Shown in pieces: positions 5,868 through 61,192 of a stretch of 64,000 nucleotides of DNA. Under the pieces are notes generated by a model. The model made no database searches. It was given only the letters and a program-made list of their open reading frames with translations, and had not been told where the DNA came from. The position numbers were made by a program, and so were the translations under genes. Source of the DNA: Tetradesmus obliquus (taxonomy: Eukaryota; Chlorophyta; Chlorophyceae; Sphaeropleales; Scenedesmaceae); the NCBI GenBank assembly GCA_030272155.1, contig CP126192.1, positions 5,490,501 through 5,554,500 of the forward strand. Reading direction: 5' to 3'. Each line of letters starts with the position of its first letter. The stretch's first letter is position 1.

Positions 5868-8800
5868 CTGAAGGCAGCGGCGCTGCAGGAGGCAAGCTAG
5901 GCGTTGCAAACAAGCTCTCCAGCTCAGCAGCACGCACCCTCTGGCTATCTGCCTTCAGCGCCCCTGCCGTCGCCTGCGCTGCTGCTGCCGCCGCTGCTGC
6001 TGCTGCCGCTGCGCCGCGGAAGCCGGTGGACGGGCCTGCTGCTGCTGCTGCCGGCGCGACGTCGGCCCAGCGGCTGGTACCCGGAACGTGTGCGCCGCTG
6101 CGGCGTGCTTCAGCCAGCTGCATGATCTTCTCCTCGATTGAGCCCTGCAAGCCGGCCACAACATCATGTTGAGTGACACGTGGACAACTTGCAACGGAGT
6201 TGAGAAGTCAGCACAGTGGCGGCTGCAGTTGCTGGGGCCTAGATGCATTTTGGCTGACTTGAGTGTCAAGGGAGCTCAGCCGGCCAACAGCAGCATCACT
6301 TGCGCCTTGTGTAAGGTGGCAGCCAGCAGGAGTGCACGTAACATAGGTTGGAAGTGTTACATTGCCCTGCAATCTCGCTGTGTGTAACAGTTTCCTGGAG
6401 GCACGTGGTTCTCAAGCCGAAGCAATCACATGCCAGAGCAGCGCACCTTGACAAACAGCCGCTTGACCACCACCTCGCGCCGCTGGCCCATGCGCCACGC
6501 GCGCCCTGCACGGCAGCAGCACGGAACACCAAGCGTCAACTAATTGGCGCAAGCTACTGTGCCAACACTAGCAATAGTCCCCAGGACTCCAGCAGTAACA
6601 CGTAGCAGCAGCGACAGTAGTACAACGTCCACACATGCTGCTGCACTCTACTCACCGATGGCCTGCTCCTCCAGTGCAGGGTTCAAGCACGGCTCCAGCA
6701 GGAACACGTGGTTGGCTGCAGTCAGGTTGATGCCGCAGGCGCCGCTGCGCACACTCAGCAGAAACACTGCGGGCAGCGAATGGGCGGGCAGCGGCGCACA
6801 ACACGCGTGAGGGTTGCTGCAACAGCTGTGCCGTTTGATTCTACACTGAAATCACAACCAGGGCAGTTGATGGTACCCTGCCATGCCCAAAACAGCAGTG
6901 CACAGGCTGCTGGCATGCACAATTGTAGCGGAAACATGGCACACCAGCATTCTGGCCCCCTAATCTTCCCCAACCTGTGGTGGGCGGGTCCTTCTGGAAG
7001 TTCTTGATGGCTGCTGTGCGCTGGTTGAGCGGCATGCTGCCGCTGATGGAGCGGAAGCCAAAGCCGGCTGCAGGCAGCGCCTTCTTGAGCCACTCCAGTG
7101 TGCTGTTGTACTGCGTGAACACCAGCGCCTGACCGGCAGCAGCAGCAGCAGCAAAAGCAGCAGCAGTTGCGGCGGTTGTGTACATGTGGAATTAGGTGCA
7201 GAGCAGAGAGGGCCTGCAAGTCAGATATGTTGTGCTGTGTTGATGGCTACGCTGCATGTAAAACATTTACCGTTCAGCGCTTTTGTACATCCACGGCATA
7301 CTCTAAGCAAGAATGCTGCCGGGAGTGCTCTTGTGGGGCGCATGCATGGCAGGCAGGCAGGCACACTGTACAGCCGCGGATGCACTGCTGCTAAGCTGGC
7401 TGCTACAGCCAGCAAAAAGCAATACAGTTCAGCAGCAGCTGCATGCATGGGCTGCGTCATTTCCTGCCCACCTTGCTGCTGGGGTCTGCGGCACGCATTG
7501 CTGCCAGCTCCTGCACGGGCACAGCAGTAGCAAGCACCACCAAACAGCAGCAGGACTCAGCGACTCAGAACATCGCTAAGGAAATGGGCAAACGCAAGTA
7601 TCAGGCTACCATACAATTACTGACCACAATCCCAAAGCTGACAATTACAGCTGCCAGGCAAGCTCTGCATGCTCTGCAACCTCAGGACTCAGCAGGACTC
7701 CTGAGACGTTGCTTGCCTCAAAACCTGGTCTACTGCCTCACCTTGAGCAGCACCTTCAGCTTGCTGTCACACACCACCACCAACCCGCTCCTCCCCTGCA
7801 ACCACATCCCTCGGGCAACCTCCCTCAGGCAACCTCAAGACTAGTGCTTGCACGCTGCTTGCCTCAAACCATGTCTACTGCCTCACCTTGAGCAGAACCT
7901 TCAACTTGCTGTCACACACCACCACCCGCGAGCCGTCCTCCGCGCCAGCTTCTGCTGCTGCTGCCGCTGCCGCCCAGTCCTCCTCATCTGCCTGCTGCTG
8001 CTGCTCCACCAGGCCGGCCTTCAGGTCTTTGCTGCTGATGCCGGAGCGGCACAGCGGGCACAGCTTCTTGCTCTGCAGGCAGCTCATGATGCACTCCTGC
8101 ACGGAGTGCAGCCACACGGCAAAGTACACAGGCATGGTAGGGGTTGATGCATGCAGCTGACAGAGCATAGCCAGAGGATGAGCCATCCACCTGTTTGAAG
8201 TCTGTTTGAAGTCTGTTTGAAGTCTGTATTAACGCCTGAATTATGCCACAAAGCTAGCACCTCACCTTGCAGAACTAATGCGCAATTACCTGTGTATGGT
8301 TCACATGCGAGCATGCCTGCATGCATGCAAATAATAACATCCTCACCTTGCAGAACCAGTGGTTGCAGGGCGTCACCACCGGCACCTCCAGCACGTCCAG
8401 GCACACCACACACTCCCGCAACCCTGCTTGCATGTCAGCTGCTGGAGCACGCAATCCAAATACCTGGCTGGTGATCTCCTTACTAATGTCAAATGCAAGC
8501 TGTGCGCAACTCCCCATGTACATTTCCTATGCACGCATGCCTCCAAGCGTGTGTGGATCATACGCAACCCTAAACAACAACATCCTCACCTTGCAGAACC
8601 AGTGGCCACATGGGGTCACCACTGGCACCTCCAGCACATCAAGGCACACCACACACTCCGCATCCTCAGGGGCAGCCACGCCAGCACAGGGCAGCCCAGC
8701 CGTCAGCAGGCTGCTGGTGGCTGCGGCTGCTGCTGCCAGTGCCTCGGGAGAGATGGGCAGGTCGCCCAGCGTGCGGGACAGGTCGATGTCGCGGACCTGT

Positions 8801-11800
8801 GTGTAGGCAGTGATGATCAGCAACAGCGGTGTGGACATGTGGGACAGATGTACATGAGTGTCGTGGGTTTGAAACAGGCACATATTGCTAAACTACGCGT
8901 GGGCAGTGTGTGAGCAGTGGTGATGAGTAGCAGCAGCAGCATGGACATGCGGCAACACACATGTACAGAGGTGCCTGGGGTGCCAGGTTGCCGGCCAGAA
9001 GGCGCAAATCGCTGTGTGCCGCACAAATATCTGCTGCTACAGCTGGTCAAACATATATCCAAGTGTACTGCAAGCCCTGTCTGTCTGCCAACACAATACA
9101 CACAGAGCTGCCATCCAAACACACAAAACACACACAGCCGCAATAGCCGCCACCCCCAACCACAGCCCCGCCTGCATGTCGCTGTTGCTCAGCCGCCCGC
9201 CGCTGCAGATGCGCCGCTGCGGCAGCAGCAGGCTCATGGCTGCCAGGATGTGGCGGTTGATCTGCGCCGGGCCTGCTGCAGCCAGCTTGAGCCAGATGGC
9301 CCGCGCCCGCGCATACGCCTCCTTGTAGGCCGCAGCCTCCTCCACGTTCAGCACCACTGCATGCAGATGATTGAGGTGACAGCGACAGTGACAATGAGAT
9401 GGTGTTTGCTGCAATGCTTTGACATTATTTGCGACCTGTGCCTCCATAGATCCAACAGCATACAAGCCCCTCACACGCCAGCCTCAGGCAACGCAACGCA
9501 CTGCATGCTGCAAGCTGTGCCTGCCGTGCAGCTTTCAGCCCTCACCAGGCACGTCCAGCAGCGTCTTGGGCGGCAGTCTGAGCATCCAATCAAGCCCTTT
9601 AAAGGTCAGGCATGAACCAATGCAACGCAACGCAGTGCAACGCAACCCGCAAGCTGCCTATCATTCCACCTCACCTGGCACGTCCAGCAGCGTCTTGGCC
9701 GGCAGGCTGAGCACGGCCTGGCCGTCCAGCTGCTGCTCCTTGGTGTGGCGCGTGACCAGGCCACGCAGCACGTGCACCAGCGGCAGCGGGCTGTATTGCC
9801 TGCAGCAGCAGCAGCGGAAGCAGCAGCAGCAAACACATGTCAGCAGTGGTATCACACTAGCACAGCAAGTAACGGCATGCAACACGGCAGCCCCTGCGCT
9901 GCGCCGGTGCATGCTGCAGGCTGCACATGGATCACGGTTCAATGTGCATTGCCCCACCTGCTGCGCTGCCTGTTGTTGAGCATGTGGCGGGAGAAGGGGT
10001 GCTTCACCTGCAACAGCAAGCAGCAGCAGCATTCCTGTCAGGGCGCTTGTGAACCATGAAGCGTCAGGAGCCAAGTGGGCTGCTATCCACGCCACTGGTC
10101 TCACCAAAACAATAGCCAGCCATATTTGATTCCCATGCGAATGCGTGCACTCGCAGCAGCAACTAGCCAGAAGCACAGCCAGGGATGCACTGCAATGCTT
10201 GCCAGGTGCACCATAGAATGCATGCATGCAAGCACACCATTAGCGCCTGCAGGCACATGCCTCCAGCCGCCACGCCAGCCCACCACTCACATTGTCGTGG
10301 AACCAGCTGGGCACGTTGAAAGGCCACAGCTGCAGCGCCGCAAACTGGCCCTGCAGGTCGGCCACGTCACCGCCAATGGGCGTGCCCTGCACACAGCAAG
10401 AAAGATATGCACGTGCACATGCAGCAGGTGTGCACCCTTGTCAGCAGTCTGTGTAATAATACGAGTGAGAAAGTATTTACATGTTGTTGTGTGCCGCAGG
10501 AAGAACGCACAGCAGCGAGCATGCACAGAGGGTGTGCAGCCAGTGTCAGCAACCCGTCCTAGATGTTGTTGCACTCCATCTGACACAAAGCAAGTGCTGG
10601 GGCTGCAGTTGCAGTGCTCAGTGTCCCTTACACAACCTCAATGTACCTGCACCAAACCTAGCAACAATTGGCGCGAGATAACCAACTGGTACTGCACGTT
10701 TGTCATTGCATCGTGTTGTGTCGAGCGCTGCGCTCACCGTGACCACCCAGCGGTGCGGCGCAGGCAGCGCCACTGCTGCCCTGGTGGTGCCGCTGGACAC
10801 GTTCTTCAGCGCATGGCCCTCGTCAAACACGACACGCCTGCAGGGACACAACAGCCAAGCAACAAAGCTAAGGTCGAAATCAGGCAGCCTCAGCATCAGT
10901 CTGCCCAGCTGCTGCCGCTGGGCACGTTCTTTGGTATATGGCCCTCATCAAACACGACACGCCTGCAGGGACACAACAGCCATGCAACAAACACATACGT
11001 CGAAGTCAAAATGAAACATAGGCGAGTCGAACATAACGCGCCTGCAGTCCAGCACAACATGCCTGGGACGTTCCACAGTGCCGCAACACAGCACGGCCAG
11101 CAGTCGTCACACCAGCTGCAGAGTTGCAGCAACAGGCCTGCAGCGCTGCAATGCGCAATGCTGCACTGCCCCGTGTCCAATGGTCAAAACACATTGCTTG
11201 CATGCAACTGCCAACAGATGCAGGATGCAGCCATGTAAGCGCGGTGCCTGCCATGTACTATGTGGCCCCAACATACATACAACAGCACACACTCACCACC
11301 ACTGAATCTGCTCCAAAGGCGGCAGCGCATGCGCACCACAGTCAGCCACCTGCAGCAGCAGCAGCAGCACCACCAGCAGCAGCAGCACCACCAGCAAAAG
11401 CAGCAGCAGCAGCAGCAGCAGCAACACCAACGTGGTGAGCTGACGAGGACAGCTGTGGCCTTGTCGCTGCATCTTGCATAAACCCAGCCCAAGCTCGTGC
11501 ACCACACAAGCAACTCAGCTGCGCTACTCCTGTTGGTCTGTATACACTGAGAAAACACCGCAGTGACAGCTTGCGTGACCTGCCAGAACCTGCAGCTGCA
11601 GCGTTGCACAGCACGCAGCCAAGCAGCATGCCCGCCCGCCCACCAGCCACAAAGACAAGCAGCATGACCCATGGCCAAAAGACAAGCAGCATGCCCTTCC
11701 ACCCAGCCAGAACCTGCTACTGCAGCCCCGCACTGCCCAAAGCCAAGCAGCATGCCCGCCCACCCACCAGTGTCGAGTAGGTGGTAACCACCACATCATA

Positions 11801-14484
11801 ATCAGCAGCCAGCTGCTGCAGCGTCACCTGCGACAAGAAGCAGCAAGTAACGCGCAGCAAGGCTTCAGCAGCTGTGCATCTTGCCTGGATGCCATGTGTC
11901 AACCCATGGCTATGGTTAAAGCGGCTACCACCATGATTTGTCAGCATGGCACAGTCCGTCACATATGTTTTCTGGCCTGCTGACTGGCTATGAAGTGCTA
12001 CCAAGCATTGAAATGCAGCCAGCCCCACGCACCTTGTCCCTGCCGGGCCCATGGTACTTGAATATGCGCAGGCTGCTGCCGCCCTCCAGGCGCGTCTTGT
12101 CGGCCGCCTCATCCTGCCACTGCCCCACCAGGCTCACCGCACACACCACCCCACAAACAAAACAGAGTTACCAAGCCATGCCGCCAGCGCACACCCCGCC
12201 TTTGCCAGGCCCGCAGCATCTCAACAACTATGCAGCAACCTTCCAATGCACACAAAATGAGGCAAGCCATGCAGCCAGTCCCCACCTTGTCCCTGCCGGG
12301 CCCGTGGTACTTGAATATGCGCAGGCTGCTGCCGCCCTCCAACCTTGTCTTGTCCGCCGCCTCGTCCTGCCACTGCCCCACCAGGCTCACCGCACACACA
12401 ACCCCACATCCAAACAAGGTGCACCAAGCCATGCAGCCAGCGCTCACCGAGTCACTGCCAGGCCCGCGGCAACCTAGTTAGAAACAAGCGACACGTACTT
12501 GGACGCACAAAAAGGCACAAAGCCAGGCCCCACCTTGTCCCTGCCGGGCCCGTGGTACTTGAATATGCGCAGGCTGCTGCCGCCCTCCAACCTTGTCTTG
12601 TCGACCGCCTCATCCTGCCACTGCCCCACCAGGCTCACAGCACACACCACAAGCGTGGCACGGCTGTACAGCAGGCCGCCACCACCCACGCGAGGCAGCG
12701 CTGCTGCTGCCTCTGCTGCCTCAGCCTCTTCAAAAGCCTGCGGGCAGCAGGAAGAGCAAAGGTGTCACATGATGCGGGCAACGTAGAGTATGCAATGTCT
12801 GTCCACCACCAACGCGAGGCAGCGCTGCTGCTGCCTCGGCCTCCTCAAAAGCCTGTGGCGGGACACGTGGCGCAGAGAAACATTTTGAGGAAATTATGCA
12901 TCTCAGTGAATAGCTGGGGACGTAAAGCATGCATTGTCTGGGCCGCAGTCAGAGACACAGCAGTAGGGACCGACGCTTGTTGTGATGTATGGCATGCACA
13001 ACAAGAACCCTCTTTAAACTTCTCTACAGGTTAAAGACTCACTATAATCATTGCGCTCCTCCTGCCGCCTCACCTGCACAGCCTGGTCCACATGTGGCCC
13101 ATCCTTTCCCAGCAGCCGCCGCAGAACACCCTCCGTGACCTCACCTTAAAAATTGCATTCAACCCTAATCCCTTCCAGTCCCCACCCCCAGTGCCCTCAC
13201 CGCAACAGCCTCATCAACATGTGGCCCATCTTTGCCCAGCAGCTGCCGCATCACACCCTCCATGACCAGAACCCTAAACAAAACCCTCAGCCCTCCACCC
13301 CCACGACCCCACTGCCCAACCCTACTGCCCTCACCGCAACAGCCTCGTCCACATGTGGCCCATCCTTTCCCAGCAGCCGCTGCATCACTCCTTCCATGAC
13401 CTCAACCCTACACTAAACCCTAAAACCCTAACCCTCACTAGCCCACCCCCACGCACACCCCCTGCCCTCACCGCAACAGCCTCATCAACGTGAGGCCCAT
13501 CTTTGCCCAGCAGCCGCTGCATCACTCCTTCCATGACCTCATCCAGCGCGCTGCTGCTGCCGCCCCCCCCCCCCCCCCCCCCCCCTCCCCCCGCCCTCAC
13601 CTGCATAGCCTCGTCCACGTGAGGTCCATCCTTGCCCAGCAGCCGCTGCATCACACCCTCCATGACCAGAACCCTAAACAAAACCCTCAGCCCTCACCCC
13701 CACTGCCCCACTGCCCCACCCCACTGCCCTCACCGCAACAGCCTCATCAACATGTGGCCCATCCTTGCCCAGCAGCCGCTGCATCAATCCCTCCATGACT
13801 TCATCAAGCGCGCTGCTGCTGCCACCTCTACCGCCGCTGCGGCCGCCCCTGCCGCGCCCTCTGCCACGGCCCCGGCCCCGCCCGGCCGACGCTGCTGCTG
13901 CAGCAGCTGCTTCACCCTCTGCTGCTGCTGTGCTCTTGTCTGCTGCATCTCCTGCCTCCTCCTCATCGCTGCAGAGATCTATGGCAGTGCCTGATGCATT
14001 CTTGCGCCGTTTGGCTTTGCTGTCCTTGCCGGCACTCTGCTTGCGCTTGCCCTTGCCTTTCGCCTTCTTATCTCCAAGCAGCACACCATCATCTGCTGCC
14101 GCTGCTGCTGCTGCTGCTGCTGAGGAACCAGCCGCGGCAGCTTTGCCACGCTTGCTGCCTGCTGCAGCACCCTGCTTGACTGGCAGCCGCTCTCCCGGCC
14201 TAGTGATAATCGGCTGCATGCTCGCACTGCTGCCAGCACCAGCATCTGCTGCTGCTGCCGCAGCCGCTGCTGCCGCTGCTGCTGCTGCCGCTGCTGCTGC
14301 TGCTGCCGCTGCTGCTGCCTTGGCTGCCGCTGCTTTGCCGCCTCTGGCACCCTTTGCAGCCTTGCCTCGTGGCGTGCGTGCTGCTGCTGCTGCGGGTGGT
14401 GCTGGCGGCGGCTCAGGCAGCGTGGTGTGCACTGCTGGTGCAGGGTTGGCAAGGATGAGGCCCAGAATGGTGATGGTCTTGCCT

Positions 14485-14526
<42 letters not shown>

Positions 14527-15521
14527 CAGCAGCACATGTGAATACAGGCACACCGCAGCAACAGCAATAGCAACAGGGTTGGCCAACATGAGGCCCAGGA
14601 TGGTGATGTTCTTGCCTGCGGCAGGGGATCAGCACACCGCAACAACAGGTTCAGCATGTGTATGTGCGTGCTGTGTCATCCACCTAAGCGCCATGTGCAG
14701 CTGAGTGATCAAGCAAGCTTCCAGCTTCACCGACCCAGTTTTGTGTGTTCAGCTGTCGCGAGCGATTGTGCATCACCACAACGACGCCATGACTGACGGA
14801 CTAGGCAGCTGACCACATAGCAGTACTTTCAAGACACCAGCAGCACCACCACGATCCACAACGCAGCGCAAGCCCAAAATAATGAAGGAGAACAAAATTA
14901 GATCATAGAACGCAGCTTATGTTTGGAGGTTGCTTTGAGGAGGCAAAAACCGGCAGCTGTTGGGCAAACTAGATACGTTTATTTGGCAAGCCTTACTCAC
15001 CTAGGCCCATCTCGTCACACAGGAAACCACCCGTGACTGTGGCAGGCGGCGCCACAGCACACAGCTTGCTCAGCCAGGCTCAGCCACAGCCGCTGCTAGT
15101 CTTGCCATCTTGATCACAGCACCAGTTGCATCACTACTAGCAACCCCCCAAGAGCGCAGCATCAACGGTGACGCCGCAACTGGCTGGCAATGCAGCAGCA
15201 GGCACAAGCCAGCCCCACAGCAGCACAACCAGTGTATGTCTCACTCACCTAGGCCCATCTCGTCACACAGAAAGCCGCCCGTAACTGTGGCAGGCGGCGC
15301 CACAGCACACAGCTTGCTCAGCACCAGGCTCAGCCACAGCCGCTGCCCCCCTAGCTCCACACTCTGCCACAGCAGGCTGTTGAAGCCTCCAGGGGCCTGC
15401 TCCTGGGCCAACAGGCGCGCCAAGCTCTGCAGCTGGTGCGGGCGCAGCGGCACGGCCAGGCCTGGCGGCTGCGGCGCAGGCTCGCAGGGACCTGCAGCAG
15501 CAGCAGCAGCAGCAGCAGCAT

Positions 15522-15552
<31 letters not shown>

Positions 15553-18500
15553 AGCAGCAGGGAACCCTTTCACGCTGTGCTCACCCTAGCACACACCAGC
15601 ACTGCACAAGCATCAACAGTTCAATAGACCCCCCCTCCCCCTCTCGCTCTCACCTGTGCGCAGCACATCAAGCAGCCCCTTCACGCTGTGCTCACTCTAG
15701 ACTTGAATTTAACAACAGAATTTCCGTGACAATCATTCACCCTGCGCCATGTTGCATGCCGCACCAACATGCCTAGCTGCCAATGTCACCTGAGCGCAGC
15801 ACACCCAGCAGCCCTTTCACGCTGCGCTCACTCCAGCATTGACATCATTACTCTGCTGCGGCTGCCACAGGCACACCAGTATTCCATGGCCTACCCCTCC
15901 CCCTCCCCCTCCCCCCTGTGCGCAGCACATCCAGCAGCCCCTTCACGCTGTGCTCATCCCAACAGTCACAAGTTTGCTGATTGCTTGTGCAATAAGAGTC
16001 ACATGGCATCCCCTCCCCCTCTCGCTCTTACCTGTGCGCAGCACATCAAGCAGCCCTTTCACGCTGTGCTCATTCTAGCATTGCACAAGACTCACCAGGA
16101 CCTGCAGAGTCGGACCATAAGGAGGGGTACTAGCTGGACACAGTCACATGGCCCCACCTGTGCGCAGCACATCCAGCAGCCCTTTCACGCTGTGCTCAGG
16201 CGCGCCCCGCCACGCCTCCATGCTGCCCAGCCAGCCCGCGTACAGCCCAGCCGCAGCCGGCTGCCCAGCAGCAAGCAGCCGCAGCGTCATGCGCAGCGGC
16301 AGCTGCGACTTGTCGCCGCTGCGGTACAAGTTTGCCAGCTGCTGCGCCTCACGCAAGCTGCCAGCAGGCGCTGCTGCTGCTGCTGCTGATGGTGCGTCGG
16401 AAGCTGCAGCGTCACCGCCTCCAGCAGCAGCAGCAGCACTACCATCTGGACTGGCCGCTGCTGCTGGTGCGCCGGGGTTTGGCGAGTTGTTGACTGTCAG
16501 GAGACCTCCGCCCTCGATGTCGCTGTCGCTGTCATTGTCTGTCAAGCTGCAGCGCACAGCAAAAAAAGTCAGCAGATGGCGTGCGACACGCAGATCTGTA
16601 ACAGCTTCGCACCTAGTGTCATGTCAGCAGCTGTCTGGCTTAGCTTGGTGTAAGTGTGCATTGCTTGCGCCACAGGCGCACAATGCACAAGCGCAGCCGA
16701 CTTCGGCATGTCAGTACACGCTGGGTTGCTCTGCTCAGCAGTGCTGCACAGCACCTGGATGTCCTCATGCAGAAACATGCATGTCAGCGCAAGCAACAAA
16801 CCAACATTGCAGAACAGCCAACCGCTGCATGCACCCGGCAATCAGCCCCCTCCCTCTCCCTGAGCCACATCAGCATGCCATCCAAGTGGACTCCAACACC
16901 ACAGACAGCATTGAGATGGCCACCAACCCGCATGCAGGGGCCTGGCTAGAATGTAGCTCGTGAGGTAGTGCCGCAGTGCGCATCAGCACATACTAGGTTT
17001 AGTAAACAATGCAAACAGACAGCCGCCGCAAGTCACTTACTCTGCAATGAAATCGCCCGCCCCCATCAGCCCCATGAGCATGCCATCCATACGGTCTCCA
17101 CCATCACCCAAAGCATCAAGCAGGCCACCATACTCGCATGCAGCAGCACGACTGGCGTGTGGCATGTGAGCAAGTGTGCGTCAGCGCCCGCATTGCGCAA
17201 AGGCCCACAGCAACAACACAATGCAGACAGCAACGACACAATGCCAACAGACAGCCAAATCTTATACGGCACTCACTCTGCGATGAGGTCGCCCGCCCCC
17301 ATCAGCCCCATGAGCACGCCATCGATGCGCAGCGCGTTGGCGGCCAGGCTGGTCGGCTGAGACAGCAGCGAGCCATGCGCCGCGTTAGACGACGGCCACG
17401 TGTGCACCTGCGGGGAGAGGTTCAGCAGTGGCAAACAGACATTGGCAAACAGACATTTGAAAGCCTTCAAGCAAGGCCGCAACGGCAGCGAGCCATGCGC
17501 CGCACTGGACGACGGCCACGTGTACACCTGCAGAGATGATGATGGCACAGCAACACAGCAACACGAGTTAGAGGCCTGCGCAGGGGCGATAGTAGCAAGC
17601 TGTGACCCTGGTTGGGGACGACGGCCACGTGTACACCTGCAGATATGATGTGGCACAATACAACAAAGTCGAATAACCCAGACAGCAGGGTAGTGACAGC
17701 TGCGAGCCATGCGCGGTGTTGGACGACGGCCACGTGTACACCTGAGGGGAGAGGTTGAGCACAGCAATCCAACGTTTAGTAAGCCTGCGCAGCGGCGACA
17801 GCAGCAAGTCCGGTCAACCTGCCAGCACAGCGAAACCAAAGGCCAAACAAAGCCAACTGCGCCAGCTCAACAACACATATCAAGCGGCTGCTGCTGGCTG
17901 GCGCTTTCCTGCGCAAATTGCCCACAAAACCCACCATCAAACACACAGGACTGCTGGCATGTTGCCGAAAGCTACAGCCACACCTGTATCATTATGATCA
18001 TTAGCCAGGGTGTCACGAATGTCACTCTGCGCACCTTGAGCGTAGCCACGCCATGCTGCTTGCGCTCGGGGTCGAGGCACTCCAGCTGCTGGCCTTTTGC
18101 CCTCAGCTGCTGCAGGCACACCCATGTTACTATACATGTTAACTGTATATCTCGAATAATAATACGCACCTTGAGCGTCGCCACGCCGTGCCGCTTGCGC
18201 TCCGGGTCGGGGCACTCCAGCTGCTGGCCTTTTGCCTTGAGCTGCTGCAGGCACACCCACATCACTATATGTGTTACTATATACGTCCAATAATAATACG
18301 CACCTTGAGCGTCGCCACGCCGTGCCGCTTGCGCTCCGGGTCCGGGCACTCCAGCGCCAGCCGCACCGCCACCGCCGGCCGCGTGTTGCCCATGTAGCTG
18401 AACTCAGGGTGCACGCGCTGCGCAGCTGCGCGCAGCTCGCTGAGCACGTCATACAGCGGCAGCCGCCGCAGCAGCTTGCGGCGCTGCTGCCGCAGCCGGC

Positions 18501-21186
18501 GGTCGGCCTCCGCATCGCGCCGGAAGTCGCGCTCGTCTGCGGCGGCATGAGATGAGGTGAGAGCAAGTGCTGGCGGTTGGTATTCTGAGGATGTGATTAA
18601 TATTAGCAACAGCATCACGTGAGAGGCAGCGAAAACCACGCCGCAAGTCTTGCTCGTCTGCGGCAGCATGAGAGATCAGGTGACAAGGTGCTGACACTTT
18701 GGGTAGCATATGCAGCATGAGTATCGTATGTGACGTTGCACCGCAGCATACAATGATGAGAGGGCGACAAGCATGGCGGCTGGCTTCTGTTTCAGTTATC
18801 GTGGCAGTGGTTAGCAACACATGCGTGGTGCCGTGCCAGCTGAGACTGCGGCTGAGGAGGCACAACTACTGGCCAGAAGCCACCTGATGGGTCAGCAGTG
18901 CAAAGCACAGCCCACAGCTAGCGTCAGTCACAGCAACATCAAGTTGTTGAGGCGGAAGCAGGCATTGCGACTGCCGAGGCACTGGCGAATGCAAAAGACC
19001 ATGCACATACTCACAAGCGAGTGCTGTCTGCGCTGGTGACTGATCCACCCGCAGGCCCAGGTTGTAGTGGTCTCCCAGCACATTCTGCCCCTCAACATAC
19101 AGCTGGGCAATGAGGTCCTGGCAGAGCCAGGTCAGCTGCCCGCCAGGCTTGGCAAACGATGCTGCGTTGGTGCGTGGCGTGTTGTTGGGGCAGTATGAGC
19201 CGGCAATGCTGCCACTTGTGTGGACGGTGCGCAGCAGATGCACGTCAGGAGGGCTTTGGTTGTCTCGGTACACGCGCCAACAGTACCTGGAGCAGCGTCA
19301 CAAATGGTAAATTGTTTGGCAGCAGCGGGACGTTTGGGTTCAGCGCAGCAGCGGATACCACAGGACACCACAGCGGATCATGCACCTAACCGCTACAGCA
19401 ACAGAAGCAGGCAGTGGGCTGCAGAACACATTGCGCGCTTGCAGGCACTTGACATGATCATCCATTATGATGTGTAAGCACACCAGCATAAGGCACGCAT
19501 GACACATCCAGCATCATCATACGTATCAATATCAGAGTGCATCATGTTCTTTGGAGTTCACTCTTTGTCGTAGACCGTGCATTCACTTCGCTTGTGGCTC
19601 ATGCCATCTAAAACGGTGCCAGACCCGCATGTAATCATCCTGTCTCATATACTATGAGTCACATGATGTGCTCACTTGCAGTGCTTGTCCAGCAGCTGCA
19701 GCAGCTTCTCCTGCAGCACGCCATGCTGCCGCTTCCCACCAGACACACAATCATCAGGCAGTGGCAGCAGCTGCAGGTACTCTGTGCGCCGCGAGTAGCG
19801 CATGTGCTGCAGCAGCGCGTACTGCTTGGCGTAGTGCTGCTCTGCTTCGCCGGCAGGTGTGGCGGGCTGCTTGCCCTTGGCATCAGGCGCCTGCAGGACA
19901 CAGATCATACGTAAGGCAAGCAGGCAGGCAACATCAACCGCTTGTATCAAGGGAGCAAGCTGGCACAATATATAGGTAGGCGGCAGGAGGGCAGGAGGGC
20001 AGGCAGGCAGCGCAGCCTGTTGGCAATTGTGCATGCAGGCAGCAGCCCAATCCTCTGAAGGTCATGCCTGCAGCTACCATGGCTGCAGCACAGCAGCTGA
20101 GAACACTGCCTCCACCTAACGTAGCCGCCGCCAAAACAGCAATCCACAGCAGCTACACGACTCTCAAGCCCTAACCCACCCCTCCCGGCATATGCAGCCA
20201 CCCACCTTAGGCAGCCAGCACACCAGCAGCTCCTTCTGCTTGAACCTCGGGTGCGACGGGTCAATCGTGCACACATCAAAGCGCTCATCATCATCCGCTG
20301 CCGCTGTCACCAGCATGCCGCCATCCGCGCCGTCATTGCGCCACAGCAGCACCACTGCCTGCGGGGCGTTCGGCAGCTGCGGCTGCAGCTGCTGTGTGAT
20401 GGATGCACGGGCCTCGGCTATGCTGCAGCTGTTGGGCAGCTCTACGAGCATGTCTGACATTGGGTAGCCAGGGCGCAGCACCTGCAGCACAGCAGCACAG
20501 TAGCGGCGTGCATGAGGACAACGGTGCCATGTGAGAGTAAGGGAACAGCGGGGCAACACATAGAACCGGCAGGTCCTCGCAGTGGAGGCACGAGGCACTG
20601 TTGTATTCGTCGCTGCTGCTGCTGCTGCTGCTGCTGTGCTGCTAAGGCCGCCGCACAACCTGATGGCTGTGTCTGCTAGCGCTCTGCTGCGCTGGTCTCT
20701 GCCAGGCTGCGCGCAGCAGTGACAAATCAAAAAGGGCTGCGGGTGCTGCACGATACTCCTGCTGCTGCTACATGCGAGCTACCAGGGCGCAAATTGCAGC
20801 AGCTGCTGCTGCAGGCACCTACATTGATCTCGATGATCTGTGTTTCATTGGCATCCGCTGCTGGCGCCTCCACCTCAGGCACATCAAAGGTGAGGTACTT
20901 GGGCCTGTGCAGCGAGCCCCCTGACACGTTGAACAGGCTGCAGGGCAAGACACAGCAGCAGCAGCAGCAGCAGCAGCATGCAAAGACGCGAGACTCAGCA
21001 TACAGATCTAGTGCAGGGGCTGTGCTTGCTGCGCAGGTTCGAGCAGCTATCCAACAGTGCAGGCACACGCCAGGCGTGCTGTGGTACTTTAGGCCTCACT
21101 GCACAGCATGGCAGGTATGGGCTATACATGATTGTTGCTGTGCACGCCTGAAAGAAGGCTGCAGCAGGTCTGGCCTAATAATTGCG

Positions 21187-21222
<36 letters not shown>

Positions 21223-31515: not shown

Positions 31516-34279
31516 GGCAGTTCATATCAATAGGCAACGTCTGCATTTCGTCTGCTTGCATGTGGAGCTGCATCTGCTGACACCAGGCACTCCACAAAGG
31601 GCAGCGCCTGCCAAGCTAGCGGCAATTTGCTGTACACAAATCAATCCGTTATACACAGAGCCGGCACGCTTGTTGCTGGTGGCGGTGTGACAAGTGATGA
31701 TGCGGTCAGCCAGCCAGCCAGCCATCACGCCAGCCTCACCGCATGTGCTCACCGCAGCAAGTTGTAGTGCATGGGTGCAATGTATGTCAGGAAGACCTCC
31801 AGCCGCGACACGAGACTTTTGTTGCTGGCAGATGCACGTGATGCTAATGCATTCAGCTAGCCAGGCATCCAGACAGCTAGCCAGCCAGCCGGTCAGCACC
31901 ACAAGGCCGTGCTCACCGCAGCGAGTTGTAGTGCATGGGTGCGATGTAGGTGAGGAACACCTCCAGCCGCGACTTGTAGCTCAGCGGCTCGTAGCGCAGG
32001 TACCAGTTGCGCTGCTCGCTGGTCACCACGTGCACAGCCACGCCAAAGCTGTCACAGATCGCGCGCAGCGTCAGCTGCAGCGCAGAAATGTAACACAGCG
32101 CAGCAGAGACAACAGGAAGAGAACAGCAGCAGGGTGAGGTGATGATGCCGCAGATCGTGCGCAGCATCAGCTGCGGTGCATACACATGTACAGTAGAGTG
32201 CAGCAGCGGCAGCAGCAACAGGGTATAGATGTGAATGTGAGAAGAAAGGACATTGCAACAGGCGGGGGCAGCTTTGGCCGTTGCACAGCGGCACGCATCA
32301 CTTGCAATGCATGCATGCACGTATGTGGCCGCGTGCAGCGCACCTCGTCGCCCCAGGTGCCGTCCTGCGCCCTTCAAGCAACCCTAACAATGCAGCGATA
32401 GCCATTGTGCACATATGCATGTGCGCGCCCGCACCCTTGTTGCCACAGGCGCCACCCTGCGGCATGCCGCCAGTCCGTTGCTGCAACGACATGCCATATG
32501 CACACGTGTCATGCTGCCGTACCTCGTTGCCCCAGGTGCCGTCCTGAGCCATGCCTGCTTGGTGCTAGTTGCACGGGACAAAAAAGAGGCATGCGCGTCA
32601 ACAGCAGGAGAGCCTGCTGCCGGCTGTAGTCTGCGCACCTCGTCTCCCCAGGTGCCGTCCTGTGCCATGCCCACGCAGTAGTAGGCAAAGTCCTCCCCAA
32701 GGAAGGTGGCGTATGACGCCGGGTTGGCCCTGCAGCAGCAGCAGCAGCGGCAGCAGCAGCAGCAGCAGCGGCAGCAGCAGCAGCAGCAGCGGCAGCAGCA
32801 GCAGCAGCAGCAGCAGCAGCGGCAGCAGCAGCAGCGCAGTAGGAAGAACACGTCATCTCATACGCAGGTATGGAGTGAACGCCCTGGCGCGGCGACAACA
32901 GCAGCAGCGTGTTCAGCATGCAGGGGCGCGTCACCCTAGCTTTGTGTGACGCCTCACTCCATACACGCTGCTGACCTACTCTGGCACAGCGTCTGCAGAA
33001 ACTGCTTGCATGCGGCAGGGTCATATCATATGACTCATGTGAGGGCAGTGTCGCAGTCTACCGCTGCAGTGCAAGGCGCCCAGCAGCTCACTTGATGTGG
33101 TTCACAGCCTGCTGCCGCACGAAGCCGTGGAACTCCTGAGTGCCGTACAGCTGCTCAGACACAGAGCGGAACTGCACATGCAGCAGCAGCAGCGCGGGGC
33201 GGCGGCAGCAGATAACATGGTGAGTTGCTGTCATGCACGGCATGTAAAGTCATGCACGGCATGTAAAGTCATGCACGGCATGTAAAGTCATGCACGGCAT
33301 GTAAAGTCATGCACGGCATGTAAAGTCATGCACGGCATGTAAAGTCATGCACGGCATGTAAAGTCATGCACGGCATGTAAAGTCATGCACGGCTTGTAAA
33401 GTCATGCACGGCATGTAAAGTCATGCACGGCATGTAAAGTCATGCACGGCATGTAAAGTCCGGCCACAACGTACCAGCGTTCCAAGCACTGCTACACCAG
33501 CAGAAGGAGCTGCGATGGCAGCTTGCAACAAAGGAGACGAACGAAGAATGGTCAGCAGGGACAACTTTGCACAGGTTGCTCCATTTGCCGTCCCATGTTC
33601 TTGACACATCTTGGTATCCTACCTGAACCTACACCAGTCATAGTACTGGCGGCATGGCAAACCAGCACACCCGCATCTAGTCAAACCAGGGCGGGAACCA
33701 CACAGCACTGGCCGCCGCACAACAGCACAACATGCACGTTTCGCTGGTGCCCTACCCCTGCCCAGCTGCTGCCGATCCCATTCACACCAGTTGAAACAAA
33801 CCAACACGAATCAGCATGCGCATCAGCTCTCACCTGGCAGTTGCCGTCAGCCACGCTGAGCTGCTCCTCCAGCCGCAGCCTCGCCAGCCGCTGCACCAGC
33901 CGCTGCTGCTCATTCAGGTAATCAGGGCCCAGCTGCATTTGGCTAATGCTCTGCTCCATTGCCAGATTCGCCTCTAGCTGCTTGCGGCTGTCTGTCCAGC
34001 TGGTGGCACTCGCGTGGCGCGCTGCTGCTGCTGCTGCTGCTGCTGCTGCAGCCGTCACAGCCGCCGGCAACGCCTGCTCCTGCTGCTGCTGCCGGTGGTG
34101 CTGTGGGTGGTATGCTGCAGCAGCAGCGTGGTTGCCGCCAAAGACAGGTGCAGTGTTGAAGCCCACTTGGCCTGACACGACAGACGCGAGCTGCTGCTGG
34201 TACTGCTGCTGGTGGGGCTGCTGGTAGTGGTGGTGGTAGTGCTGCAACGGTAGCTGCTGCTGCAGGTGCTGCTGTGGTA

Positions 34280-39010: not shown

Positions 39011-39953
39011 TGCTCGTCTGGGTGACTTCGCCGCTGCTGGTTGCTGTCTGATCCTTGCTGTGTCCCGCCTAGCAGCCCCCCAGCTGCTGCTGCAGTTGCT
39101 GGGTGAGTGCCACAGCCAAAGCTCTGCTGCCCAGCAGCAGCTAGCTGCAGCAGCTGCTGCAGCAGCCGCAAGCTGGATGCCAAGTGGTAGCTGGCTGGCA
39201 GCAGCTGAGGGTGCTGCTGCAGCAGCTGCAGCAGCTGCTGCTGCTCCAAGCCCAAGCAGTGACCCATGCCTGTCAGGCGCTTGCTGAGCTGGTTGGGGCT
39301 CCAGCACAGCAGTGAGGGCTCTTGCAGGATCAGCTGTTTAGAAAAGTCAAAAAGCGGCAGCAGCAGCAGCAGCACCAGCAGGGCGAGCTCATCAGTCACA
39401 TGCCGTGCAGGCGCTTGCTGCGTTGGTTGGGGCTCCAGCACAGCAGGGAGGGCTCTTGCAGGACCAGCTGTTGTGCATGACAACGATGCAGAAGCAGGAC
39501 AGCAGCAGCAGCAGCAGTAGCAGCAGCGGGACCAGCACAATAGTCACGATGCAGAAGGACGTGCTTCAGCTGCTGGCAAACCACGTAACAAGTTAACAAC
39601 AGCAGAACTGCCGGCTCATAAATGGGAAGTATGCGCAGAAGCAGCACGACAACTGCCCACCTGTTGTACAGCAGGAAGGCCCCCAAACAGCCGCAGCAGC
39701 ACACCAACTCGCTGCTCAAAGGCATGCAGCGAAGAGCCCAGCAACCGAGGGTCTTCCACAAGGGCAGCAGCCAGCTGCTGCGGCTGCAGCTGCAGCAGGC
39801 CTGCCATTTCGTGGAGTTTGTCTGCTAGGCGAGCGTGGTTGAAGTCGGAGAGTTGAGGGTAGTCCAGTAGCATGGCTGCTGCTTGGCGGGGGTGCAGCTG
39901 CACAGCACGAGCAAGGCTGACGGCGCGGCTGTTGCCCGAAGCGTTGCGACGTG

Positions 39954-40872: not shown

Positions 40873-43456
40873 CTATTCGGCAGCTGTTGCCTCCAGCTGC
40901 ATGCCGCTGCCATGTGCCTGAGCAAACACGTTGACTACGCTCTCAATAACATACACCATGCCAGGGATGTGTCCCTTGCCCACAATAGCCACCACAGGCG
41001 ACCCGAGTGCGTTGTGCGCGCTGATCTGTGCTGCCTGCAAGGTGTTGGTTGCCAGCACCCAGTTCCTGCATGGCGCAGCAGCAGCAAACGCAGGCAGCAC
41101 ATAACTCAGCGCGCAGCAAGTGGAACACCAGACAGGTGCTTGAATTGAACGTAGATGAGGCCCTCTAGTCAGCTGCTTGCAGACACACCGTGTGACTGTG
41201 CAGCTGTGGCAAGTGCAGTGACTGTGCAGCTGTGGCAACACCTGGGTGGCTGCAACTGCAGCAGCCGCATGCAGACCACTCAGGGCTGAACACTGCCACT
41301 GCCACATCACAACACACAACATCCTGCAAAGGCTTTGTATCGGCTGCTCTCATGCTCGGCTCGAACAAACCAGTTGCTGTGCCACTGCCTCACAAAGCAC
41401 TGCGATGCAGCAGGCTACATTACTCTCATACGCAGCGCACCTGTCATGCAGCAGCGGCCGCATCACTTCTGGGTACTCCTGCGCAAACTCTGTGAGCAGC
41501 AGCTCCACCATGTCTGCCTCAGCCAGCGACTTGATGTCATCCTCGCTGATCTGGCGGCAGCAGCAGCAGCAGCAGCAGCATCGACAAGTAAGCGCAGCAG
41601 TATCGGGACATGCCAGGAGATGCTTCCTTAGTCTGCAGTGCGCGTCTACACCATGACACTCCCGATATATTTGTGGGCGTTGACGCAACGCCATGCGCGG
41701 AGCAGGGGGTCCAGCTGCGCCTGCAGGCCCACACCCATGCTGCTCATTTGCTGCTGCTGCGCGTCAAAACTCACCCCGCACACCAGCGCTGTGAGCAGGT
41801 CCCAGATGAACTTGAGCCGCCGCCAGGGCTTCAGCGAACCCCACAGCCCCAGCAGCGTGTCAAGCAGCTCCCTGTCACCAGCCACACAGCGCTCGACCCA
41901 CACGGCCTCATGCGCTGGCTGCTGCTGCTGCAGCTGCTGCTGCTCCTGCAGCATCTCAATCAGCGTGGCGCGAGCAGCGATGAACTCGCAGCCAGCACGC
42001 ACCTCCAGCTTATCTTCCAGCTGAGAGTACATGCCCTGCAGCACAAACCAGCAGCAACAGAGGTTAGCAGAGGTCAGCACGTGCGACAAGCACTGTTTTG
42101 CAGAAGCTGTCAATTCTACACCAGTTGTGCCAGCATGCGCCTGCTGCCAGCCTCCTGCAAAGCAACACACCACACCCACTGCAAACTACTTCAACCACAA
42201 CACAGAGCAGATGCAAATAACATTTGCAATCGTGTTAACTTCTGGCCATAACCCCCTCACCCCCATCATCGCCGACAGCACATTGTGGTCCCTGCTCTTC
42301 AGCGCCGCCGACAGGATCTCCGCCGTGCTGCGCTGCTTGAGCGCTGCCGCTGCCGCCATCTTGTCTGGGCAGGGCTCCAGGTCGTGCAGCGGGTCCCTGT
42401 ACGGCTCCACCAGCATGGCCTGGATGCGCGCCTGGCACAGCTCCAGCACCACCAGCGACGGGTTGAGCGCCTGCAGGCGGACAGGCAAGTGCATGAGCCA
42501 AGGACACGAATTGAATCAGCATGGCCTGGATGCGCGCCTGGCACAGCTCCAGCACCACCAGCGAGGGGTGCAGAGCCTGCAGGCAGGCAGACAGGCAAGT
42601 GCATGAGCCAAGGACACGCACTGAATCAGCATGGCCTGATTGGGCGCTTGGCACAGCTCCAGCACCACCAGCGAGGGGTGCAGAGCCTGAAAGCAGGCAG
42701 GCAGGCAGGCAGGCAGGCAGTTGCATGAGCGCACCAAGAACGCAAAATAGTGGGTGGGCATGGTCTGGATGCGTGCCTGGCACAGCTCCAGCAATGAAAC
42801 CTCTCTGCTGGGACCCAGCATGTTGTCCCTGTGAATTTCAAGGACCAGGCAACACAACTAGCCAACTGCTGTGGTGGTGTCAGAGACAAGTAGGAACTGA
42901 GCAATGATCCTGCAAGCCTGCTCACCCGCAGCACTTGCTTGACCTGCTCTGCCGACTGTTTGGACACGTGTACAGTGCCGATGATGAACAGCAGCTCTGG
43001 GAGCTTGTTGACCAGAAGGTTGTGCAGCGCAGGGCTCTCAACCAGCTGTGCATGCAAGTCTGCTGTGCCGGGTGGGCCCTCTGTTGCATCTGCCTGTGCT
43101 GCGCCCTCCTGCTGTGCCTGCTGCTCTCCAGCTACGGCTGCTGCGGCGCCAGCTTGCTGCTTCTGCATCCTTCCTGCAAGCATCTTTGCGGGCTGCACTG
43201 CCACCAGGATGCCGCTTTCAACTAGTGGAAGCAGCTCGGGGTAATGCTGCTTCACCAGCTGCAGAGACTCCTGCTGGACCGCTGTGGGCTTGTAATCTGC
43301 CGTTGGGATGCAGTTGTGGTGGACTTTCTTGCTTTCATCCACTGATATGAGAACATGGTGCACCCAGCGTGCAAGCTTGTACAGCAGCCGGCCAAAGTAA
43401 AGCAGCAAAACTGCTGCCAGCAGCTTGCGAGTGCTGGGCAGATTCGGTGGCTGCAT
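40873..43456 (-). CDS. TraB-domain membrane protein
   Basis: Five exons in agreeing phase: 43456-42926, 42470-42261, 42035-41775, 41550-41441, 41065-40873, 434 residues. The N terminus has a hydrophobic segment (KLLAAVLLLYFGRLLYKLA), a likely membrane anchor. TraB signatures follow: FIIGTVHVSKQSAEQVKQVL (about 157 on), PSLVVLELCQAR, DMVELLLTEFAQEYPEVMRPLLHDR, NWVLATN and VVAIVGKGHIPGM near the C terminus. Bacterial TraB relates to pheromone inhibition and the fold is the Tiki superfamily; eukaryotic relatives sit on the mitochondrial outer membrane, and plant ones have been linked to organelle contacts and mitophagy (family knowledge). Enzyme activity here is unknown. Intron 1 contains three echoes of the exon 2 start. 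The gene is divergent from the phosphoesterase gene. Confidence 0.85.
42413..42800 (-). repeat. exon echoes, acceptor side of TraB exon 2 (4 units)
   Basis: Units begin near 42413 (true exon), 42519, 42629 and 42758, with periods of 106, 110 and 129 bases. Each codes ALHPSLVVLELCQARIQAM or a remnant. Units 2 and 3 keep AG acceptors; unit 4 is partly replaced. The spacers hold an expanding GCAG/GCAGGCAG tandem. Confidence 0.85.
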
Positions 43457-44750: not shown

Positions 44751-44790
<40 letters not shown>

Positions 44791-53762: not shown

Positions 53763-53793
<31 letters not shown>

Positions 53794-53965: not shown

Positions 53966-53999
<34 letters not shown>

Positions 54000-55604
54000 T
54001 GTGCCGCAGCAGGTGCAGCAGCTGCAGGATGAGCTGGAGGATCGAACTCGGGAGCTGCTGGAGTGGCAGATACATGCAGACGTGAGTGATGCAAGCTGCT
54101 GCGTATCCTGCAAGTTTGACATGTGCATACTGCCGTACTGCTGTTTTTGGTGCTTGCCTTGGTGTTGAGCACGTGTGAAATCCACTTGTTCGGAATAGTG
54201 AGCTTCAGTGCAGCAGCTGCTTCCATTTTGTGGCTGACACTGTTGCGATGCTGAACGACATGCCTTACCCGTGTATATGTGTGCATGTGTGTTGCTAATG
54301 TTACACTGTTGTACGTGTTCACAGGCCTTGGAGAAGGACCTAGCAGACCTCAAGGCGCGTGCCGACTCCGCGGATGCGCTGCAGCAGCAGCTGGAGCGCG
54401 CAAACCAGCAGCTAGCCGCGCATGGCGGCGAGGTGGAGGCGCTGCAGCAGGAGCTTGGTCAATGCAGGGAGCGCATTGCCACGCTGGAGTTTGACCTGCA
54501 CGGTGCGCTGCGCTGGTTGCTGCTGACACATGTGTACTGTGGTCGAGTGGCTGTGCTGCTTGCACAAAAGTGCAGGGCAGACGGGGCAGTTGTTCGCTGC
54601 TTCGAGTTCTATATGATGTCCGGCACGGTGCGCTTCTTGCTCTTGTTGCTGCTGCGGCTGTGCATGTGTGCTGGCTCTGACGCACTCAGTCATCGCTGCC
54701 CCATGTGCCAGATGATGGCTGGCGCAATGCATTCACGTGCTGCCTCCTTTGCGAGGTATATCTGACACTCACCTACCCTTAGGTGCCTGCCTGCCTGGCT
54801 TGGCTGCATTTGCCACTTGCCATTCACCATGCACCATTCACTTTGGCGCAATGCAGATGCCGCCAAGGACCACAGCGCGCTGCTGCAGCGCTTTGAGGGC
54901 GTGACCGCTGAGCTGGGCCGCGTGCGCGAGGGCGCGGCAGACATGCGGCTGCGGCTGGATCACTTCACGGGGCCAGCAGGCCCGCAGGCGCGCATCCGGC
55001 AGCTGGAGGGCTCGCTGCAGACTGTGAGAATCTGCTGCGCTGGTGCTATGTGTTTGTGGCGATGTTGTGCCATATCTAAGGATATGGCTGTTGGCAAGAA
55101 GAGCAGTCATCAAGAACGGTGTGGATGGCTGCTGGTCATTGTGTCAGCTGCCCTGGGTGGTCTGCCGCAACATGTGGTGGTGCAAAAAATACATTCGGGG
55201 TCACTGAGCTGCTGTGCTTGTGCAATGCCGCGTGTATATGCTGTTGCCTGCTAACGCCGCTTTCCCTGCTTGCTTTCCCTGCCGCATTCCATGTTTGTTC
55301 ACCCCGCAGGTGCAGCGCAAGTACGAGGGCGCGGAGTCGCGCGCCACAGCAGCTGCAGATGAGGTGCGGCAGCTGACCGCCAAACTGAGCAATTGCCTTC
55401 TAACGCGCCACACTGCCTGCCTTCGTGTATGTTTTGCCTCTGCAGGTGCAGCGCAAGTACGAGGGCGCGGAGTCGCGCGCCACAGCAGCTGCAGCTGAGG
55501 TGCGGCAGCTGACGACCAAGCTGAGCAATGCTGAGGATGAGATCCTGGCTCTGGAGGGCCAGATCAGCATCCCGGAGCAGGAGCTGGCCAAGTACGCGAG
55601 CTGA
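49280..55604 (+). CDS. long coiled-coil protein
   Basis: Nine exons in agreeing phase: 49280-49428, 49614-49942, 50208-50341, 50574-51744, 52022-53376, 53635-54081, 54325-54502, 54857-55023, 55446-55604, about 1,362 residues. The first about 350 residues are Ser/Pro/Ala-rich and probably disordered. From about residue 350 to the end heptad-like Leu/Gln/Glu sequence dominates (LVDENRRLAAANRQLAEEKQEL, QLEQQLEALQDELEEAR and many more), broken by Ser-rich linkers and a poly-Q block near exon 6. It ends LEGQISIPEQELAKYAS. No GRIP, kinesin motor or other named domain is seen, so a scaffold or golgin/centriolar-type role is only a guess. The first exon and its GTGCCA donor are the weakest part. Exon 9 has an upstream echo. 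Confidence 0.75.
55310..55530 (+). repeat. exon echo, acceptor side of the last coiled-coil exon (2 copies)
   Basis: The 85 bases after the acceptors at 55310 and 55446 are almost identical (VQRKYEGAESRATAAADEVRQLT against AAAEVRQLT). The second copy continues to the proposed stop at 55602-55604. The first runs into other sequence and, if read through, ends in a different stop near 55498. Confidence 0.85.
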
Positions 55605-57406: not shown

Positions 57407-57479
57407 CACCTACAGATGAACTGACAAAAAATTTCTTTTTAACCAATTCCGCTAGAAAAGGCGCTTTCAGTGAATGCTT

Positions 57480-57518
<39 letters not shown>

Positions 57519-57911: not shown

Positions 57912-57948
<37 letters not shown>

Positions 57949-58106
57949 GGCGGCGGCAAAACCTGAGCAGCAGCAGCAGCAGCAGCAACAGCTTGCAGGA
58001 CACGCTGGCAATTGCAGCAGCAGTGGCGTGCCAGTGGTGGTGTTTGTGCATGGAGGTGAGCTCTGTGGCCGAAGCAGCAAGGCTGCTAGGGTGCAGTACG
58101 TGGGCT

Positions 58107-58154
<48 letters not shown>

Positions 58155-59442: not shown

Positions 59443-59487
<45 letters not shown>

Positions 59488-59807
59488 AGAGGAGGCGCTG
59501 CTGCTGAAGCAGCAGCAGCAGCCGCCGCCGGCCTGTGGCTTTTACGGTAGCTTCCAGCTGGCAGGGGAGAGCATCGCACACCGCATAGGTGCGCTGCTGC
59601 TGTTGCGCATGTCTTGCTTCGTGGATTGCAAATGCAATCAGCTCTGTGCTGCAGCTGCGCTACATGCCCTGCTGCCTTGGGCGACGCTTTCTGACTGCTT
59701 GCCTGTTGGCCAGCACACTGTTCTGTTTTGGCAGCATGGAAACCCATGCTTCTGTCTTCAAACAAACTGCTGGAAACGAGTGTGTCTCTGCTGACTTGCT
59801 GTTGTTC

Positions 59808-59859
<52 letters not shown>

Positions 59860-60228
59860 AGGCTTTGAGCGAGGCAGTGCGCACCACTTTGCCAGCGAGG
59901 CAGCCCTGCAGCTGCAGAGCATGGCAGGCATGGCCCCCCTGCCGCCCTTTGACCTTGCAGCAGCAGCCTTCCTGCCACCCACAGTGCTGCTCAGCAGCTG
60001 CAGCGACCTCACTGTGCCCTGGTGAGCTGCTGCTGCGCTGGCTGCATCTGCTACTGTGCACAATGCACTGTGACATATACAGCTACCTGGGGTGAGCTGC
60101 TGCTGCACTGGCGGCTGCATCTGCTGCTGCGCGTATATGTGACATATAGCGCTGCCTGTGGTGTCAGGTGTTGTTTTGTGTGCTGGGTGTGTGTGAAAAT
60201 TGAGGCGCCTGTTGTGAATAGAGCTCTG

Positions 60229-60267
<39 letters not shown>

Positions 60268-61192
60268 AGGTACGAGTCTGCTGAGATGTACTACCGGCTG
60301 CTGGACTGCGGCGTGCCTGCAAAGCACCTCGTGTACAACAAGGTGCGATGCCGTTGCAGCTGCTGAGCTTAGTGCTGAAACACAGGGCCCTGGCGCCCCT
60401 GGCAGGTCACAGCTGACGCTGGCAAGGCACCAATTGTGCTGACACAGGGCCTTGTATTATTTGCACACCTGTTATGCAGCAGTAGTAGCACTCGGCATGC
60501 CCAGTCTACTGCACCCAGCTGAGAGATCTGAGCAGCTCATGTTATGTCGCTTTTGAACCAACACTGTCAGTTACAAGACTGTGGCATGCCTGCAAAGCAC
60601 CTCGTGTACAACAAGGTGCGCTGAGGTTGCAGCTGAGGGCTGAGGAACAAAGGACAGACAGATATCAGGCTTTCAGGCACAACCTCATACTGTCTAACGG
60701 GCTTTCAAGCTCAAGCCCATGTCTGCTGGTAGCAACTTGTTTCCCACGCAGCATCCAGGCCCTGTTTGTGCAAGTGCTGAACTAGCAACCTCATCTGTGA
60801 TGTTCTGCTGCCTGCGTAGGTGGGCCATGGAGACTTTGTTGTGGACTGGCCAACTCGCCTGAACGCCACCAGCAGCGATGAGTGGGGAGGCGCCAGCAGC
60901 AGCAGCGGCGGCGGCGGCCTGCAAAAGCAGTCAGTCGAAGATGCTGATGACTGGGGCAGCAGTGACGGCAGCGACTGTGGCGTGAACAGCAGCAGCAGAG
61001 GCGGCAATGGCAGGGCACCAGTGCAGCAGCGGCAGTTGCTGCTGGAGCAGCTGCCGCACTACTTGCGGGACATTGCTGTCGTGGCGATGGGGCAGCAGCA
61101 GGTCAACTTTGTGCAGCGGGCGCCTGCGCACAGCAGGCAGGCCGTGGAGTCAAATGGCAGTGCTGCAGCAGCAGCCATGGAGTGGCAGGCAG

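Follow-up and report, generated by a model that had tools for sequence, protein, structure and literature searches.

The window, a stretch of 64,000 bases of the Tetradesmus obliquus genome (C2:5490501-5554500), carries several predicted intron-containing genes. Pfam matches bear out the names that an earlier note, made from the letters alone, had given to most of them (OTU, SNF2 plus RING, TraB, alpha/beta hydrolase); the reading frame that it called mTERF-like has no Pfam match. CAG/GCA-type repeats are pervasive across positions 1-64000, where the masking of short-period repeats covered 6,895 of the 64,000 bases, and positions 33230-33460 hold a minisatellite in which a 19-bp unit recurs about 12 times (99% match). 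After this masking, self-BLAST of the window at E ≤ 1e-3 returned 51 direct pairs, none with members more than 1.5 kb apart, and nothing distant or inverted. The pairs group into 21 arrays: 17 combine bases of predicted exons and introns, a further one sits at a stop codon, another is confined to an intron and two fall outside predicted genes (Table 1). We refer to a copy of an exon edge in the adjoining intron or flank as an echo. The earlier note had counted such copies in more than twenty introns; the echoes are real, and at this threshold the 17 exon-intron arrays make that figure a small overcount. In the donor-side array with four echoes, the 41-bp cores are 93–98% identical to the exon and the spacers are poorly conserved. 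The echo of the RING exon was found by repeat search and missed by the masked edge scan.

Table 1. Repeat arrays in the window (positions counted from its first base)
Feature	Position	Strand	Details
Donor-side array	7706..7926	-	Exon edge 7887-7926, echo 7742-7781, offset ~145
RING exon, donor-side echo	8329..8659	-	Predicted edge 8590, echo 8329-8416, offset 243; RING domain by Pfam
Donor-side array	9540..9713	-	Exon 9675-9799, offset 129
Acceptor-side array	10776..10991	-	Exon 10738-10837, offset 125
Array touching donor edge of predicted exon 11768-11827	11579..11770	-	Mostly intronic, offset 124
SNF2 donor-side array	12013..12650	-	Exon 12534-12737 and two echoes 248 and 501 bp downstream
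Six-copy array	13058..13810	-	Spacing 127-137 bp; exon edge model uncertain
Acceptor-side array	14444..14617	-	Exon 13698-14482, offset 133
Donor-side echo	14992..15315	-	Exon 15249-15491, offset 248; all 4 differences over 67 aligned bases at third positions
Donor-side array	15632..16198	-	Exon 16158-16546 and four echoes (126, 242, 368, 504 bp)
Intron-only array, the sole one in the window	16875..17176	-	
Acceptor-side array	17361..17761	-	Core four times; predicted edge probably misplaced
Donor-side array	18030..18355	-	Exon 18304-18536 and two echoes (134, 269 bp)
Acceptor-side array	18518..18693	-	Exon 18304-18536, offset 121
OTU gene, stop-codon edge array	31745..31973	-	C-terminal codons and stop repeated in 3' flank, offset 164
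OTU gene array	32338..32671	-	Offsets 116, 179, 295
Array, two AG-preceded copies	39265..39472	-	Offset 134; no predicted exon, no Pfam match
TraB gene, acceptor-side array	42411..42793	-	Three echoes; matches end 7-22 bp from predicted edge; TraB by Pfam
Acceptor-side echo, coiled-coil gene of the earlier note	55306..55529	+	Exon 55446-55604, offset 136
Hydrolase gene, donor-side array	60304..60635	+	Exon 60270-60342, offset 273; hydrolase by Pfam

The assembly comprises 104,662,953 bases in 17 contigs with about 57% G+C; the T. obliquus genome is given as 107.7 Mb with 57% G+C in PMC5966456. Our sample of 264 kb consisted of the window and twenty 10-kb stretches at fixed positions, which between them sampled every one of the 17 contigs. 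Gene models were made without annotation, by a hidden Markov gene finder trained on the 264 kb. Unconstrained self-training drifted from 245 to 751 introns over eight rounds, and a constrained version was used instead; it converged, giving 304 exons, 246 introns and the consensus CAG/GTGAG at donors and TGCAG/G at acceptors (slash at the splice edge). Because this gene finder sometimes calls echoes as exons and sometimes misplaces edges, the edge tests were limited to exons of at least 100 bp and left out L017, which holds a long tandem array (1-3958, unit ~276 bp, copies ~95% alike) that the gene finder reads as a largely open coding frame. Array counts use 91 of the 94 arrays, the other three being two in L017 and a satellite-like array outside predicted genes at L005:1-1135 (unit ~190 bp).

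Exon-edge echoes are real and genome-wide in T. obliquus, where they affect about one in five exon ends. Pairs of the kind seen in the window were present in 15 of the 20 stretches outside it, and the twenty stretches together gave 163 near direct, 17 far direct, 2 near inverted (both in L018) and 2 far inverted pairs, so that window and stretches combined hold 214 near direct pairs versus 2 near inverted ones. Offsets have a main peak at 100–140 bp and a second at 240–280 bp, in agreement with the periods of about 105–160 and 240–275 bp read earlier from the window. When exon sides were compared with their adjoining 600 bp, 61 of 295 had at least one direct copy (36 donor, 25 acceptor). These amount to 108 copies, of which 81 reach the splice edge within 6 bp, 9 stop 7–30 bp off and 18 lie farther inside; the same 295 sides yielded no inverted copy, and swapped-gene controls with five draws per exon side yielded 0 copies. 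The 81 edge-reaching copies sit at 49 exon sides, 20 of which have two or more echoes. The window contributes nine of the 18 copies that lie farther than 30 bp from the predicted edge; the six-copy array, where the exon edge was probably misplaced by the gene model, accounts for seven of these nine. Arrays spanning the splice edge of an exon of at least 100 bp made up 58 of the 91, against a mean of 28 (maximum 43 in 1000) for random placement in the same locus and 41 (maximum 54 in 500) for placement in genic sequence only.

The phenomenon is not specific to splicing. Copies were found at 7 of 39 stop codons, 3 of 38 start codons, 25 of 141 acceptors and 35 of 144 donors, with no inverted or other-gene match at any of these four kinds of edge; the rate at stops equals that at acceptors and comes near that at donors. 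The stop-edge counts rest on predicted gene ends, some of which may be wrong. Six of the seven stop cases were re-aligned (the seventh, in L019, gave a self-match), and all six copies end in a stop codon, with TAA versus TGA between the copies in one case. In three of the six, the similarity breaks off no more than 4 bp from the stop codon; over all six echoes, mismatches fall 6/10/24 on first, second and third codon positions. That copies occur at stop codons too argues against a role in splicing and for a general rule by which duplicated coding edges are tolerated.

We think it likely that the echoes are remnants of short tandem duplications that survived at coding edges, perhaps in part by way of allelic exchange. 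Short head-to-tail duplications of ~90–250 bp, mostly 110–160 bp, would arise frequently, presumably through a break-repair or slippage step. Selection would purge those internal to exons unless they were in frame, and those straddling a coding/non-coding edge (donor, acceptor, stop or, less often, start) would be tolerated because one intact edge remains joined to the gene. The spare copy would turn into intron or flank and then decay, and later exchange between copies would raise the number in an array to between three and five. In a considerable share of the cases, the two copies may be coding alleles that had diverged along with their respective non-coding flanks before unequal exchange between homologues joined them. 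Duplication is supported by the edge test, in which direct copies gathered at exon edges with neither inverted nor swapped-gene matches, and by changes private to the echo at all codon positions (33/32/57 in 20 arrays with at least two echoes; 2/2/16 private to the exon). Against it, the echo-private changes still lean to third positions, 57 of 122. Junction-spanning duplication, the simplest model of the earlier note, is best supported and extends to stop codons, but it is incomplete, given a shortage of arrays away from edges, echoes that lack matching intron sequence and an excess of synonymous differences.

With respect to the first of these, the 91 arrays divide into 64 with exon and intron, 11 with exon and non-genic sequence, 2 mixed, 7 intron-only, 5 non-genic and 2 exon-only. 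If units were placed at random and every class could be recovered equally well, the 64 would be accompanied by 59 intron-only, 163 non-genic and 72 exon-only arrays; recovery relative to exon-intron edges is 0.12 for intron-only and 0.03 for intergenic arrays. This rarity, which counts against simple duplication, could reflect partly a recovery bias, coding sequence staying recognisable, and partly a duplication bias towards genes; faster loss of similarity in non-coding sequence covers part of it, not clearly all, and duplication may therefore be biased to genes or exons. The absence of arrays made only of exon-internal sequence, as read earlier, holds in the window and gives way in the whole sample to the two exon-only arrays, whose three offsets (102, 243 and 909) are all multiples of 3.

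Collinear intron homology (p ≤ 0.1) adjoins 30 of the 49 nearest echoes. The other 19 lack it though their exon parts are highly alike, which also counts against simple duplication; a looser search detected intron similarity in 7 of the 19, leaving 12 of 49 without any after both searches. Exon-echo differences are too synonymous for neutral echoes, most clearly in these 19. Across the 49 nearest pairs, mismatches by codon position were 39/43/137, a ratio of 3.35 (bootstrap 2.48–4.71), and simulated neutral echoes gave a mean of 1.68 with a maximum of 2.48 in 200 runs. The bootstrap median was 4.45 (3.31–6.69) for the 19 echoes without collinear homology, 3.28 (1.98–6.14) for 13 with weak homology and 2.52 (1.31–5.45) for 17 with clear intron homology, the last being compatible with neutrality and not significant. 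The codon signal is only moderate in echoes not predicted to be coding: the ratio was 3.0 (2.13–4.35) in the 34 of 49 nearest echoes so classed and 2.64 in the corresponding 55 of the 81 edge-reaching echoes, with 4.45 (2.58–9.57) in the 13 of 49 predicted coding, after two that were neither clearly coding nor clearly non-coding had been dropped. At L006 the nearest echo differs from its exon by seven changes, all synonymous, and the next by two, one of them synonymous. Faster mutation at third positions was considered and rejected, as mismatch rates by base and CpG context at positions 1–2, applied by hand to position 3, fail to predict the signal.

The intron and codon pattern could credibly be accounted for by coding alleles that diverged together with their own non-coding flanks and were then joined, which would need deep allelic divergence; the ratio in excess of the simulations and the TAA versus TGA difference both support this allelic component. 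According to PMC8226300, only 44.1% of the intron sequence can be aligned when Chlamydomonas reinhardtii is set against the closely related C. incerta, and synonymous sites are regarded as restrained by codon usage; such poor intron alignment makes poorly alignable introns beside similar exons credible. It is possible, though we hold this tentatively and lean the other way, that many echoes are fossil exon alleles, each set with its own intron or 3' flank beside another allele by unequal exchange of strongly diverged homologues. If so, introns would lengthen as former coding edges piled up in them, and every such stack would record the allelic history of its exon.

Recurrent gene conversion from the exon to old echoes, keeping the exon parts alike as the spacers decay, is the alternative that fares best, and we still judge it unlikely. 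In its favour, exon parts were 0.85 alike between echoes in 20 arrays versus 0.70 for intron parts, which had many gaps, and two arrays had four informative site pairs of which three failed the four-gamete test, though a third array had none failing among 21. However, by our reasoning an exon donor on the same chromosome should give a ratio of about 2 or less, well short of that observed, and differences are unclustered along the copies (30 pairs with at least four differences, combined p 0.28).

The earlier note had also raised a functional reading, in which echoes are kept as decoy or alternative splice sites that regulate splicing or add alternative exon ends. The gene finder's coding calls and the largely synonymous differences speak for it, as does the retention of GT in 40 of 48 donor echoes and of AG in 27 of 33 acceptor echoes. 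This retention is nonetheless about what 5% decay per site would leave, by our own estimate from exon-echo identity (median 0.93 over the 81 copies), and we found no upkeep of echo splice sites beyond the neutral expectation and none of frame. The point differences and small indels described earlier are both present in the exon-echo alignments; among the 81 edge-reaching copies, 35 of 41 indels are not a multiple of three and in-frame stops number 5, and frameshifts affect 11 of the 49 nearest echoes. Unit lengths are likewise off-frame, with remainders of 0, 1 and 2 on division by three in 28, 32 and 27 of 87 arrays, and copies are as frequent at stop codons as at acceptors. The D1 protease gene allows a comparison with a solved protein, and an acceptor echo lies 91 bp upstream of its exon at locus position 1910. 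The gene's exons, as assembled by the gene finder, align with residues 33–388 of PDB chain 1fc7, which we take to be the Scenedesmus obliquus protein, with two mismatches and one six-residue gap as read from the alignment; the chain aligns contiguously at the exon with the echo, and the echo's peptide is absent from the solved protein. The decoy reading accordingly seems improbable. Another C-terminal-protease-like gene (L026, 2942-3388) has an array with a 135-bp unit lying across its predicted stop codon.

Slightly less probable again is copying specific to exon edges, for example RNA-templated or guided by the splice machinery, that would halt at the splice site. It would suit the 19 nearest echoes with no collinear similarity past the first intron bases despite high exon identity; against it stand the 30 with collinear intron homology and two cases in which intron sequence was plainly copied. 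A donor-side copy in L016 repeats 65 intron bases with a score of 125 out of a possible 130, and an array in L019 (2627-2959) has a 54-bp exon part in triplicate and an 83-bp spacer in duplicate, with no difference between copies, so that its 83 intron bases are repeated perfectly; the latter is apparently very recent and should be a good marker for polymorphism between strains. It is also at odds with the three stop-codon copies whose match breaks off no more than 4 bp from the stop, a place where the transcript has no boundary, and since copies can end at stop codons too, we give RNA-templated copying little weight. Assembly stutter at haplotype switches could create false local copies whose differences look allelic, as these do, but we consider it very improbable given the edges with two or more echoes, the density of arrays (94 in 264 kb) in a 17-contig assembly, the clustered offsets and the frameshifts. 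Introners, mobile intron-like elements inserted near exon edges with long target duplications, could explain spacers with no detected homology to the original intron, yet the window has no distant self-match and two spacers searched genome-wide each matched only their own array, which leaves this the least probable account.

Tandem duplication, then, remains the reading that we prefer, and parts of it have precedents. As described in PMC4974935, an intron of the potato RdRp gene was gained by a tandem duplication crossing an intron-exon boundary; there too the duplication spans the edge, with splice signals taken over from the parent structure, but it concerns one gene, one event and a new intron, whereas in T. 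obliquus about a fifth of tested exon sides, donors and stop codons among them, are involved and an existing intron seems to lengthen. The AGGT model (Rogers 1989; Hellsten 2011, as described in PMC4974935) likewise has short tandem duplications in coding genes tolerated through splicing; it duplicates an exon-internal AGGT and makes a new intron, whereas in T. obliquus an edge that was already there lies within the unit. Tandem exon duplication with mutually exclusive splicing (PMC9013439) also repeats exon sequence beside its source, but there a whole exon is copied with both splice sites and its frame kept, and the copies here mostly carry one exon edge (81 of 108), with off-frame spacing and frameshifts. 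Fill-in repair at breaks gives short, direct, head-to-tail copies similar to these; the system in PMC8355091 is break repair in mammalian cells with mostly shorter (<100 bp) insertions, and a link to the alga is our inference. Introner elements (PMC9860276) also add non-coding sequence within genes at genome scale, unlike T. obliquus, where the two spacers searched genome-wide revealed no dispersed family. Among the matches listed from open-licence PMC papers, a set that mostly leaves subscription papers outside, there was no report of genome-wide partial-exon echoes. What is known is tandem duplication and, from PMC4974935, one duplication across an intron-exon edge; what appears new is a fifth of exon sides in one genome.

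Intron lengthening and intron birth by tandem duplication consequently become measurable in one organism. A practical warning is that gene finders, like ours, will mistake echoes for exons. With the recognised arrays collapsed, predicted intron sequence shrinks by 13% (from 71,360 to 62,074 bases), and in PMC5966456 the mean intron of T. obliquus, 462 bp versus 230–302 bp, is the longest of the five algae tabulated.
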